From positions 1 through 36,435 of the IMG/VR virus record IMGVR_UViG_3300036770_000514: a stretch of 36,435 bases of DNA, one strand, 5' to 3'. The notes beneath the pieces are model-generated. The model did not search any database and was not told where the DNA came from. It saw nothing but the letters and a program-made list of their open reading frames with translations. Both the position numbers and the translations under genes were made by a program. Every line of letters starts with the position of its first letter. Positions within the stretch are counted from its first letter, which is position 1. This document shows, one piece after another, positions 20,268 to 23,682 of the stretch. This stretch comes from a virus.

Positions 20268-20452
20268 TGGAAACGATTGCCGAATCCCTCGCCAAGGTTT
20301 GGTTTCTGGGGGTTGCGGTAGTAGGTATCGCGGCTTATGCTGTGACGCTTAAAGTGCGGGTTGATTACTTAGAAAAGAACTACGACAAACAGATCACTGC
20401 TTTATGGGAGCAGATTAACAAGTTGGTGAATGAAAGGTCCGGCGGTGAATGA
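20267..20452 (+). CDS. Small membrane-anchored coiled-coil protein, spanin-like candidate
   Basis: This 61-residue protein has a membrane helix at about residues 11-30 (VWFLGVAVVGIAAYAVTLKV) and then a charged helix (DYLEKNYDKQITALWEQINK). It overlaps the previous gene by one base and the endolysin start by up to 23 bases. One N-terminal membrane segment plus coiled coil, next to an endolysin, is the design of an inner-membrane spanin, although most are longer and I see no outer-membrane lipoprotein partner. It could instead be a holin regulator. Confidence 0.7.
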   Translation: METIAESLAKVWFLGVAVVGIAAYAVTLKVRVDYLEKNYDKQITALWEQINKLVNERSGGE

Positions 20453-20912
20453 AGCCAAAAAGCTTTGCAAAGATGTTCTCATCAAACCCTTTGAAGGGTT
20501 GGCAAAGCGTTTGCCTGACGGACGAGTAACTGCTTACCCAGATCCCGGAACCCGTGGGCATCCTTGGACGATTGGTTGGGGGGCGACAGGGCCAGAGATT
20601 CAGCCGGGAACTATTTGGACCATGCAGCAGTGTGAAGATGCGCTTGACCATCATGTTGAGTATTTTGTCCGTGGCTTGTTTAAGCTCTCTCCTAAGTTAG
20701 CAAACGCTTTTCCACGCCGCATTGCCGCCGTGACAAGCTGGGCATACAATTGTGGCTTAGGGAACTATCGGGTTTCCACGTTCAAGAAGCGTATTGATGC
20801 GGGGGATTGGGATGGTGCAGCTACTGAATGCCTCAAGTGGACAAAGGCTAATGGCCGAGTTCTTCCTGGCTTAAAGAGGAGGAGAGAAGCTGAGGCTCTT
20901 TTAATGAAATGA
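20430..20912 (+). CDS. Endolysin, GH24 lysozyme (hybrid C-terminus)
   Basis: This is a 160-residue T4-lysozyme/lambdoid-type muramidase cleaving the peptidoglycan glycan chain. The catalytic triad is visible as E22 (IKPFEGLAKR), D38 (AYPDPGT) and T47 (PWTIGWGA); the C-terminal helical lobe has TSWAYNCGLGNYRVST. There is no signal peptide, so export needs a holin. ATG 20430 is given; GTG 20445 with AAAGG 7 bases upstream is an alternative start. The last 22 codons (KANGRVLPGL, RRREAEALLMK) lie within the inserted HNH module, while a second, diverged version of the same C-terminus lies at 21466-21543. The final part of this protein therefore appears to have been supplied by the insertion. Confidence 0.92.
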   Translation: MKGPAVNEAKKLCKDVLIKPFEGLAKRLPDGRVTAYPDPGTRGHPWTIGWGATGPEIQPGTIWTMQQCEDALDHHVEYFVRGLFKLSPKLANAFPRRIAAVTSWAYNCGLGNYRVSTFKKRIDAGDWDGAATECLKWTKANGRVLPGLKRRREAEALLMK

Positions 20913-21441
20913 TTGCCTTTTCAACACCATGTTTTTTAATGCGGTACGACAGCTTTCCGTATGTTGTGGATAGCTTTTCTGCCCACCAAGTTATGCAACC
21001 TGATTGCCCTTCAAATTCAATGTTGCGGTTTGACTTTGTATTTCTTTGTTGATCCTTTATAGATGCCCACCGACAATTTTCTTTACTATACCCTTTTGAC
21101 CCGTCAATACGATCAATCGTTGTGTTTGGCGGTCGCTCTCCCATGTCTTTCAAAAAATCAGCAAACGAATTTCGCCAAGCATCGCACACAAAAATACCTT
21201 TTGCTCCATAGTTTTTATACTTTGAAGAGTAAGTTTTGTGGCATCGTGAAACCATATTTACCCATGAGTTATAAGTTGGAGAAACCGAGGTTTTTGTCGT
21301 ATGCCCATGTTTTGTGGACTTTGTTTTTCCTAGGCAACCCCGACTGCAAAAAATGCCCCGACCAACCCTGCTTGGTGCAGCACTAACTTTGAAGTCTTTA
21401 CCACAATGAAGGCACTGGCGTACAATTTGTTTGGATTTCAT
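20848..21441 (-). CDS. HNH homing endonuclease, antisense insertion
   Basis: This is a 197-residue protein on the opposite strand to the late operon. The N-terminus has a zinc-ribbon-like CLHC (C10, C13) and C32/C36. The middle is the typical phage HNH region: YNSWVNMVSRCHK, YKNYGAKGIFVCDAWRNSF, FLKDMGERPPNTTIDRIDGS, KGYSKENCRWASIKDQQRN. The C-terminus (ITWWAEKLSTTYGKLSYRIK, KHGVEKAI) is a helix-turn-helix-like DNA-binding segment of homing endonucleases. It interrupts the junction between the endolysin and tail-nozzle genes; its 3' end overlaps the last 65 bases of the endolysin. Free-standing homing endonucleases spread by cutting uninterrupted alleles; the cleavage site is predicted at the 3' end of the endolysin gene of relatives. 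Confidence 0.9.
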   Translation of the reverse strand: MKSKQIVRQCLHCGKDFKVSAAPSRVGRGIFCSRGCLGKTKSTKHGHTTKTSVSPTYNSWVNMVSRCHKTYSSKYKNYGAKGIFVCDAWRNSFADFLKDMGERPPNTTIDRIDGSKGYSKENCRWASIKDQQRNTKSNRNIEFEGQSGCITWWAEKLSTTYGKLSYRIKKHGVEKAIISLKEPQLLSSSLSQEELGH

Positions 21442-21448
21442 AGCCCGA

Positions 21449-21476
21449 ATTATATCAGGATAGTTATGAAAGACAA
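21449..21476 (-). promoter_or_regulatory. Putative promoter of the antisense HNH gene
   Basis: On the minus strand, TTGTCT (21476-21471), a 16-base spacer and a perfect TATAAT (21454-21449) lie just upstream of the ATG at 21441. The start of transcription would fall almost on the ATG, so the mRNA would be leaderless or nearly so, consistent with no Shine-Dalgarno being visible. The -35 box lies inside the displaced endolysin remnant. Confidence 0.35.
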
Positions 21477-21543
21477 AGCCGCTGGAAGAGTCCTGCCGGG
21501 GCTTACCCGCCGCCGAGCGGCAGAAGCTGCACTGATGAGGTGA
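21466..21543 (+). pseudogene. Remnant of the original endolysin C-terminus
   Basis: Twenty-five sense codons (reading MKDKAAGRVLPGLTRRRAAE and AALMR, then TGA) are clearly homologous to the last codons of the endolysin at 20430-20912, which read KANGRVLPGL and RRREAEALLMK. The remnant has no lysozyme core attached. Its stop is 3 bases before the GTG of the tail-nozzle gene, and GAGGTGA inside it provides that gene's ribosome binding site. This is the arrangement expected if the endolysin originally ran directly into the nozzle gene. The remnant could still be translated as a tiny peptide from ATG 21466, but more likely it persists for the ribosome binding site. Confidence 0.82.
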
Positions 21544-21546
21544 GCC

Positions 21547-23682
21547 GTGCCACTGTCCAAAATACTATACCGTCCTGGTGTAAACAAAGAGAATACTCGT
21601 TATACTTCTGAGAATGGTTGGTATGTCTCTGACAAGGTTCGTTTCCGCCAAGGTACACCAGAAAAGATTGGTGGCTGGCTACGCATCTCACAAGCTACGT
21701 TCCTTGGTATCTGCCGATCCTTATGGAACTGGGTAACGCTTTCCAATTCTAACCTGCTTGGCGTAGGCACCAACCTCAAGTATTACATTGAGCAGGGTGG
21801 CGCTTATTCCGACATCACTCCCATACGTTTAACCCAATCAGTCACATTTGCTGCGGTTACTGCCTCTCCCTTCTCCTCAACCATCACGGTTACATCGGCA
21901 AGCCATGGGGCCATTACCGGGGATTTTGTCACCTTTTCAGGGGCGGTAAGTCTTGGTGGAAACATCACGGCAGCGGTGCTTAATCAGCAGTATCAAATAG
22001 ATTCTGTACCTACATTAAATACCTTTACCTTTACGGCTAAAGATCCTTCCACGGGTGCGCCTGTCACTTCTAATGCTTCGGATGTTGGTAATGGCGGTGG
22101 ATCTTCTGTTGGTGCTTTTCAGGTCAATACTGGGCCTGGTATTGCTCAGGTTCCTCTAATTGGTTGGGGCGCAGGTGCTTGGGGTTCTGGGTCATGGGGC
22201 GTTACGCCACAGGTTACAGATCCACTGAGGATATGGAACGCAGGCAACTGGGGCGAAGACCTTGTGTTTGGACCGAGGGCGGCTGGTATTTATTACTGGG
22301 ATGCAACCAACGGTATATCAACCAGGGGCGTAGCACTCAATAGCCTTGGCGGCACGGTAACGATTACGATCGCATCGCCGGCTGTTGTCACGTTTGGTGT
22401 GGTTCTTGCAGAAGGCACGGCTGTGTCATTCACAACTACGGGGGCGCTACCAACGGGCCTAACTGTAGGAACAACGTACTACTTGCGTAATGTATCTGGG
22501 CTGTCGGCAAATCTTTCTGCCACGTCATCAGGTTCGCTGATTACAACCACCGGTACTCAGTCAGGTACGCATTCCATGGTTCTTGAGGATGTACCAAAGT
22601 ACCAGTACTCACTAATCATCTCTGATGCCTTACGGTATCTCATGGTCTTTGGATGTAATGACATCGGAAGTACCGTGGCTGATCCTATGCTTATTCGCTG
22701 GTGTGACCAGGAATCCTTGGTGGATTGGCTTCCGTCATCGACCAATACCGCAGGATCAATCAGGCTTTCCCATGGGTCGCAGATCATTACGGTCCAGCAG
22801 ACACGCCAAGAAATTCTTGCGTGGACGGATTCAGCTCTCTTTTCCATTCAGTACCTAGGGCCGCCGCTGGTCTTTGGCTCCCAAATCCTTGCGGATAACA
22901 CGTCCATCGTTGGGCCAAATGCTACAGCGGTGGCATCTGGTGTGACCTACTGGATGGGCGTGGATAAGTTTTACCTGTACAACGGACGTGTTCAGACGCT
23001 TAACTGCGACCTACGCAGATATATCTTTAATGATATAAATCGTTACCAGAACTTCCAGGTATTTGCTGGGACCAACGAAGGATTCAATGAGGTCTGGTGG
23101 TTCTACTGCTCGGCTAATTCCACGACCATCGATCGGTATGTGGTGTTCAACTACGCAGAGAATGTCTGGTACTACGGAACCATGGCACGAACTGCTTGGA
23201 GTGATTCAGGTCTAAGACAGTACCCACAAGCTGCGACTTACAACTACAACCTTGTTGATCATGAACGTGGTGTAGATGACAATGAGACAGGAACAGCGTT
23301 ACCAATCAACGCCTATATTGAATCGTCAGAGTTTGATATTCAGGATGGGCATAGTCTTGGGTATGTCTACAGGATATTGCCTGACATAACGTTTGATGGA
23401 TCAGAGACGGCTTCTCCCGCTGTCACCATGACGCTGATACCCATGATGAACTCTGGATCGGGGTACAACAATCCTCAGTCTAATAGCGGATCTTCTTCAG
23501 CATCGGTGGCGAGGACATCCACCACAACGATTGAACAGTTCACAGGTCAGGTTTATGTCCGTGTTCGTGGCAGGCAGATGATCTTTAAGGTAGAGTCTAA
23601 TCAGCTTGGATGTGCATGGCAGCTAGGATCGCCGCGAATTGATATCAGAGCAGACGGCAGGGCCACTGGAAGAGGCGCATGA
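21547..23682 (+). CDS. Tail nozzle / tail tubular protein B-like candidate
   Basis: This 711-residue protein has the pattern of large podovirus tail-hub proteins (P22 gp10 or T7 gp12 role). The N-terminus is YRPGVNKENTRYTSENGWYV, SDKVRFRQGTPEKIGGW; a GWGAGAWGSGSWG stretch, then RIWNAGNWGEDLVF. Later come RWCDQESLVDWLPS, GSQIITVQQTRQEILAWTDS, GVTYWMGVDKFYLYNGRVQ and a C-terminal DIRADGRATGRGA, all typical of this beta-propeller-bearing family. A beta-rich insertion (about residues 95-200) resembles an Ig-like or carbohydrate-binding module. The GTG start uses GAGGTGA within the displaced endolysin remnant. The next gene overlaps by 4 bases. Family assignment is from pattern recognition. Confidence 0.78.
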   Translation: MPLSKILYRPGVNKENTRYTSENGWYVSDKVRFRQGTPEKIGGWLRISQATFLGICRSLWNWVTLSNSNLLGVGTNLKYYIEQGGAYSDITPIRLTQSVTFAAVTASPFSSTITVTSASHGAITGDFVTFSGAVSLGGNITAAVLNQQYQIDSVPTLNTFTFTAKDPSTGAPVTSNASDVGNGGGSSVGAFQVNTGPGIAQVPLIGWGAGAWGSGSWGVTPQVTDPLRIWNAGNWGEDLVFGPRAAGIYYWDATNGISTRGVALNSLGGTVTITIASPAVVTFGVVLAEGTAVSFTTTGALPTGLTVGTTYYLRNVSGLSANLSATSSGSLITTTGTQSGTHSMVLEDVPKYQYSLIISDALRYLMVFGCNDIGSTVADPMLIRWCDQESLVDWLPSSTNTAGSIRLSHGSQIITVQQTRQEILAWTDSALFSIQYLGPPLVFGSQILADNTSIVGPNATAVASGVTYWMGVDKFYLYNGRVQTLNCDLRRYIFNDINRYQNFQVFAGTNEGFNEVWWFYCSANSTTIDRYVVFNYAENVWYYGTMARTAWSDSGLRQYPQAATYNYNLVDHERGVDDNETGTALPINAYIESSEFDIQDGHSLGYVYRILPDITFDGSETASPAVTMTLIPMMNSGSGYNNPQSNSGSSSASVARTSTTTIEQFTGQVYVRVRGRQMIFKVESNQLGCAWQLGSPRIDIRADGRATGRGA

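Follow-up and report, generated by a model that had tools for sequence, protein, structure and literature searches.

A free-standing homing-endonuclease module appears to swap one end of a phage lysozyme gene for a foreign one rather than interrupting the gene, a reading to which we assign a probability of about 0.8. The module was identified in an IMG/VR virus record of 36,435 bases, referred to here as the window. Its parts would be an HNH-type gene on the strand opposite to lysozyme, a promoter for this gene, and a foreign lysozyme end that shares DNA with the HNH 3' end. The features of the locus are the following:

20430..20912, plus strand: lysozyme (endolysin) gene with a hybrid 3' end (Pfam Phage_lysozyme, E 4.8e-29; PHROG 7, endolysin)
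20822..20912, plus strand: acquired lysozyme 3' end, placed by the drop in identity to empty relatives, with the replacement tail KANGRVLPGLKRRREAEALLMK at 20844-20909
20848..20912: convergent overlap of 65 nt in which the lysozyme tail meets the 3' end of HNH, from the ORF coordinates
20848..21441, minus strand: HNH-type homing-endonuclease gene, 197 aa (PHROG 3377/374)
21449..21476, minus strand: candidate promoter of the sigma-70 type for the HNH gene, with the boxes TTGTCT-16-TATAAT and TG before the -10 box
21457..21543, plus strand: possible leader ORF of 25 aa, MKDKAAGRVLPGLTRRRAAEAALMR, with AGGA at 21457-21460 and ATG at 21466, reading through the remnant
21475..21543, plus strand: remnant, i.e. 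the displaced native lysozyme tail KAAGRVLPGLTRRRAAEAALMR with its stop, in protein identical to 70 of 77 native tails
21537..21543, plus strand: Shine-Dalgarno-like GAGGTGA of the structural gene within the remnant, from the sequence and the equal layout in empty relatives
21547..23682, plus strand: virion structural ('nozzle') gene, 711 aa, GTG start (PHROG 3287 'virion structural protein', E 4e-54)

The name 'nozzle' for the gene at 21547..23682 is putative, as the family match itself reads 'virion structural protein'. The initial annotation had described an HNH gene inserted at the endolysin 3' end together with a new C-terminus and a leftover tail, and the ORFs bear this out: both tails were located, with KANGRVLPGLKRRREAEALLMK forming the C-terminal end of the lysozyme ORF (20430-20912, +). 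It was also correct in stating that the 3' end of the antisense HNH gene overlaps the endolysin C-terminus, the two genes sharing 65 nt, and that the second tail ends 3 nt before the nozzle gene, whose ribosome-binding site (GAGGTGA) it contains; the remnant stop is separated from the GTG at 21547 by these 3 nt. The nuclease matches PHROG 3377 'HNH endonuclease' with an E value of 1e-44, and the module has a GC content of 41% compared with 50% in the window. No tRNA was found in the window, which disposes of the idea of a tRNA-related integration.

Relatives provide the empty form of the site. Among 80 lysozyme relatives taken from IMG/VR one, L004, was occupied, and 77 readable tails were obtained from loci without this HNH gene, a few candidate loci coming from a later pattern scan. 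The native tail is exactly KAAGRVLPGLTRRRAAEAALMR in 70 of these 77 loci and differs at one or two residues in the others. In most loci without this HNH gene lysozyme runs straight into the nozzle gene, which, where it is directly next, usually begins 3 nt past the lysozyme stop. HNH-less relatives had been predicted to end like the remnant, and they do; nor did any HNH-less relative among the lysozyme loci scanned carry both tails, again as anticipated, two tails being confined to HNH loci. With 4 occupied loci set against 77 native tails, the nuclease shows the sporadic presence at an otherwise intact site that is looked for in homing endonucleases. In several relatives an ORF of 147 aa without a PHROG match lies between lysozyme and the structural gene (e.g. 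L011:4033-4480 and L044:1545-1992).

The new tail supplies roughly the final 22 codons of lysozyme together with a stop codon, and occurs in the form KANGRVL[P/L]GLKRRREAEALLMK in the window and in three IMG/VR contigs. In the window it has 17 of 22 residues in common with the remnant tail but only 36 of 66 nt, and different codons are used at 15 of the 17 common residues, in agreement with the earlier view that the tails differ at synonymous positions and did not arise by a recent local duplication. The second tail is not a chance similarity, since the best ungapped identity to the new tail in the 634-nt downstream stretch is 17/22 whereas 40 shuffles gave at most 8/22. By its residues, the new tail resembles the tails of a second lysozyme clade and is foreign to the native lysozyme: its E15/L19 signature is present in none of the 77 native tails (0/77) and in 38 of 60 tails of the second clade. 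The tail of L164, KANGRVLPGLKRRREAEALLLQ, is identical to the window's new tail at 55 of 66 nt, and the L164 lysozyme is 74% identical to that of the window. A convergent helix-turn-helix gene shares DNA with the L164 tail and reads through it in the antisense frame that is also used in the window; although unrelated to the window HNH gene, it has the C-terminus SSLSQEELGH in common with it. About 20 C-terminal residues of the HNH protein extend beyond the aligned family, whose members end about 20 residues sooner, and these overlapping residues look like an add-on. The antisense overlap was probably derived from a second-clade-like lineage such as that of L164. The foreign 3' end is in phase with the lysozyme core, as in elements of the fungal mitochondrial type, and the overlap of the reading frames means that a complete nuclease gene can be transferred only together with the tail.

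The boundaries of the module emerge from the comparison with L001 and L009, the nearest empty relatives, to which most 40-nt bins of the window lysozyme are 90-100% identical from 20470 to about 20821. Beyond about 20821 the identity drops to 50-62%, and many of the alignments with empty relatives reach no further than 20821; the tract common to the occupied loci begins at about TGGACAAAGG (20838). The right-hand limit of the module is 21474, and the Lys codon at 21475 is already native sequence; in the uninterrupted lysozyme gene this corresponds to an insertion at TGGAAT^AAAGC, within the 3' end. The remnant comprises all of the native tail, beginning with the first Lys codon. As the whole native tail survives in the occupied allele, the cut site would not lie wholly within the tail, and if the enzyme spares its own allele, the putative site must span TGGAAT^AAAGC. 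The loss of the cleavage site supposed in the initial annotation is to be qualified in this sense. The left edge as such is no hallmark of the module, identical short WTKANGR tracts being present in L011/L247, L248, L250 and L210; the tract was seen in L011, L014, L247, L248, L249, L250, L210, L246 and L251, all without this HNH gene. For L247, L248 and L250 it may be speculated that partial conversion produced alleles resistant to the enzyme, and the other loci of this group may likewise represent partial conversion or resistance.

No more than four occupied loci came to light: the window, L004 (which is the contig of L081), L082 and L083. All four contain the replacement tail, the antisense gene, an equal right junction and a native-tail remnant, and the nucleases of L081, L082 and L083 are 85-86% identical in protein to that of the window. 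Among L004, L082 and L083 the DNA of the new tail is 100% identical and the module (nuclease and promoter) 97-98% identical, whereas identity is only 77-81% in the lysozyme cores and 55-57% over the 300 nt that open the nozzle gene. This difference shows that tail and nuclease travel together between diverged backgrounds, and the same figures (97-98% in the module against 55-57% in the nozzle flanks) reveal horizontal movement to one and the same site, as is looked for in homing endonucleases. Support was thereby obtained, from the empty and occupied alleles and from the movement of the tail with the nuclease, for the earlier proposal of a mobile module that carried a replacement lysozyme tail and displaced the native one. 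An assembly chimera is very unlikely given the equal junctions in three other contigs. Among the matches listed from phage records all relatives are below 50% identity and none represents an occupied locus, two records beyond those listed falling in the 60-80% band by best piece; HNH relatives in bacterial genomes are only 34-45% identical. Immediately in front of lysozyme, L004 has the terminal part of a further HNH-like ORF (2705-2850), such that the lysozyme gene may have nuclease genes on both sides. At the edge of the L083 contig (last ~150 nt), upstream of lysozyme, a Lys/Arg-rich ORF finishes with IEKYQK, the C-terminus of the gene located upstream of lysozyme in relatives, and this ORF is possibly a nuclease fused to a displaced gene end.

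Retention of the native tail can be explained by the ribosome-binding site of the nozzle gene, as GAGGTGA lies inside the remnant. The Shine-Dalgarno sequence, the ATG and the open leader frame are kept in all four occupied loci, AGGA and ATG being supplied by the end of the module. The 25-codon leader ORF ends just ahead of the structural gene and, if it is translated, could restore translational coupling to the nozzle gene. The displaced 3' end resembles those of empty relatives, again as in the fungal type of element: the L004 remnant is identical to the native tail of L046 at 65 of 66 nt, and the window remnant encodes the consensus protein. The window and L004 remnants display no protein-level decay; the other two of the four remnants are altered at residues that are invariant in the 77 native tails, G9R in L082 and R12S in L083. 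Since the 7 differences between the window remnant and its nearest native tail are all synonymous, this remnant was either acquired recently or is still constrained. It differs at about 10 synonymous positions from the tail of the near relative L001, to which the lysozyme core is mostly 90-100% identical, and for this reason it may have travelled with the module. Thus, of the earlier description of the leftover as the original C-terminus, the part concerning the protein stands, whereas the window copy is not clearly that phage's own.

The nuclease is composed of an N-terminal Cys4 motif, an HNH-like core and possible C-terminal DNA-binding helices. In an AlphaFold model with a mean pLDDT of 81, the best solved structural match of the core is PacI (3ldy; Z 5.7, 81 residues, 3.2 A, 21% identity), and residues 139-174 weakly match the DNA-binding domain of I-TevI (Z 2.8); a sequence search of solved structures with the nuclease returned nothing usable. 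Arg111, Tyr118 and Asn122 are invariant among 38 family sequences, in the alignment of which no canonical HNH histidine is evident. The PHROG 3377 match and the PacI fold place the protein among nucleases with an HNH or beta-beta-alpha-metal domain, one with no evident canonical His. In PacI a Tyr has been placed as the general base (PMC4081073), and by analogy with the invariant Arg111, Tyr118 and Asn122 a PacI-like active site in the window nuclease is plausible. PacI differs in being a restriction enzyme, and the resemblance is limited by a low identity over the 81 residues and a modest Z score.

The nuclease gene may be expressed from a promoter of its own. In all three loci scanned (window, L004, L083) the top promoter-like site lies on the HNH strand and has the form TTGTCT or TTGACT, 16 nt, and TATAAT preceded by TG, with 10 of 12 positions matching in the window and 11 of 12 in L004 and L083. 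The transcript is probably leaderless, since 7 nt separate the end of the putative promoter from the start codon of HNH. Its -35 box extends as far as the junction with the remnant and may define the right edge of the module.

In the mechanism that we propose, the enzyme would cut the intact junction in a co-infecting phage, and repair would copy the module in by means of lysozyme homology on the left and the native tail and nozzle start on the right. The carried tail would keep lysozyme working, and the insertion would split the site and spare the occupied allele. The native tail would be retained for the ribosome-binding site of the nozzle gene and would perhaps be translated as the 25-codon leader from the AGGA-ATG of the module.

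An unlikely alternative that nevertheless has to be weighed is ordinary mosaic recombination, in which an HNH gene situated beside a donor lysozyme was swept in with its flank, the tail representing hitch-hiking co-conversion and not a working unit. Phage endonucleases are well documented to co-convert flanking DNA (PMC2988022), L164 has such a tail beside a convergent gene that is not an HNH gene, and left-edge tracts exist in L247-L250 without the HNH gene. Arguing against this scenario is the persistence of the 100% identical tail and the 97-98% identical nuclease as a joined pair across flanks that differ by 20-45%, with a constant right junction. Moreover, the overlap makes tail and nuclease physically inseparable, and a relative of the nuclease in L084, described below, does likewise at the 5' end of a gene.

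Two further explanations are highly improbable. The tail might have been duplicated locally and then have diverged under the antisense HNH frame, and indeed the DNA shared with the HNH gene could constrain the tail sequence. This is contradicted by the tail identities, on which the duplication was rejected: the two tails agree at only 36 of 66 nt, as against 90-100% identity with near relatives over most of the lysozyme core, and the new tail is 55/66 identical to that of L164 and has second-clade residues. Equally remote is a self-splicing intron between the lysozyme core and the downstream tail, with the remnant as a working exon, an arrangement brought to mind by the two alternative 3' ends that flank a gene of the homing-endonuclease type. 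Rfam families, introns included, gave no match in the window, nor in 20700-21700 at a threshold relaxed to E values of up to 1, and with no group I core detected there the intron was rejected. In addition, the HNH gene runs antisense, the new tail is entire and closed by a stop codon of its own, and the L082 and L083 remnants are altered at invariant residues. The nuclease therefore resides neither in an intron nor in an intein: there is no Rfam match, its gene is antisense to lysozyme, and there is no fused frame.

The module that swaps the lysozyme end is located at a junction which, judged from the loci compared, is a hot spot. In L015 (5484-6046) an Endo VII/HNH-type gene in sense orientation lies exactly between lysozyme and the structural gene; it begins at the usual start of the structural gene, and its own 3' end re-creates the ribosome-binding site GAGGTGAGC. 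In L016 (5480-6203) and L067 (3899-4624) the lysozyme/structural gene junction contains an antisense gene of the homing-endonuclease type (PHROG 314). A further HNH-family relative (33% identical) is found about 140 nt after the structural gene match in L030-L033 and L036.

When the flanks of 63 HNH-family loci were compared for repeated gene ends, L084 was the only one beyond the lysozyme loci clearly above the controls, with a score of 74 versus a control maximum of 41. At L084:2863-3983 a distant HNH relative (42% identical) is located at the 5' end of a DUF1367 gene, between a short upstream remnant, MKLNLLNTTLGLIPL..., which is read as the native N-terminus, and the DUF1367 gene, which starts with the replacement N-terminus MRINVLNTTMGLIPL.... 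In the empty site, L265:2480-2640, the upstream gene, whose counterpart in L084 encodes an RNA ligase, runs directly into MKLNLLNTTSGLIPL.... To judge from this pair, L084 and L265 are an independent mirror image of the lysozyme case in which the 5' end of a gene is replaced. The odds are about even that phage homing endonucleases quite generally resort to replacing gene ends, in addition to using introns, inteins and sites between genes. According to such a strategy, the nuclease would overlap or abut a spare 3' or 5' gene end and would insert at a conserved gene edge, the old edge remaining as a leader that keeps the translation start of the neighbour.

In fungal mitochondria endonuclease elements are known that carry a foreign gene end and displace the native one; mobile ORFs with replacement C-termini have been described for Allomyces atp6 and for Glomus atp6, atp9, cox2 and nad3 (PMC3630166). 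The lysozyme module resembles them in that a homing endonuclease is associated with a foreign 3' end that continues the frame of the core, the native 3' end has been shifted downstream and is similar to the one found in relatives, and the two tails are closer in protein than in DNA. The fungal enzymes are of the LAGLIDADG or GIY-YIG type, whereas the phage enzyme is of the HNH type; here, furthermore, the nuclease gene lies on the opposite strand and shares DNA with the carried tail, the remnant contains the ribosome-binding site of the next gene, and a 5'-end version occurs as well.

Free-standing nucleases of the T4 type (seg, mob) likewise occupy variable sites beside conserved genes and move with their flanks (PMC2988022). 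Seven T4 free-standing nuclease genes are described as promoterless (PMC2988022), in contrast to the window HNH gene with its putative own promoter. Insertions of the T4 type into genes, such as mobE in nrdA and mobA in the topoisomerase gene, split the gene (PMC2988022) and supply no replacement end. In T4 gene 60, sequence adjacent to the nuclease also preserves the function of the host gene, and protection against cleavage has been proposed; there, this is achieved by ribosome bypassing of 50 nt in a split gene and not by a replacement gene end (PMC5009743). The open-licence literature yielded no description of gene-end replacement or duplication in phages, a result that argues only weakly for there being none; the principle itself has been described for fungal mitochondria, and the phage version is a variant thereof.

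A selfish nuclease that lacks a self-splicing intron can in this way occupy a needed coding sequence and leave it unbroken, and gene-end replacement widens the range of sites that are open to phage homing endonucleases. It also gives rise to hybrid ends of phage genes that annotation and phylogeny would miss. The natural pairs of empty and occupied alleles are available for tests of target recognition.
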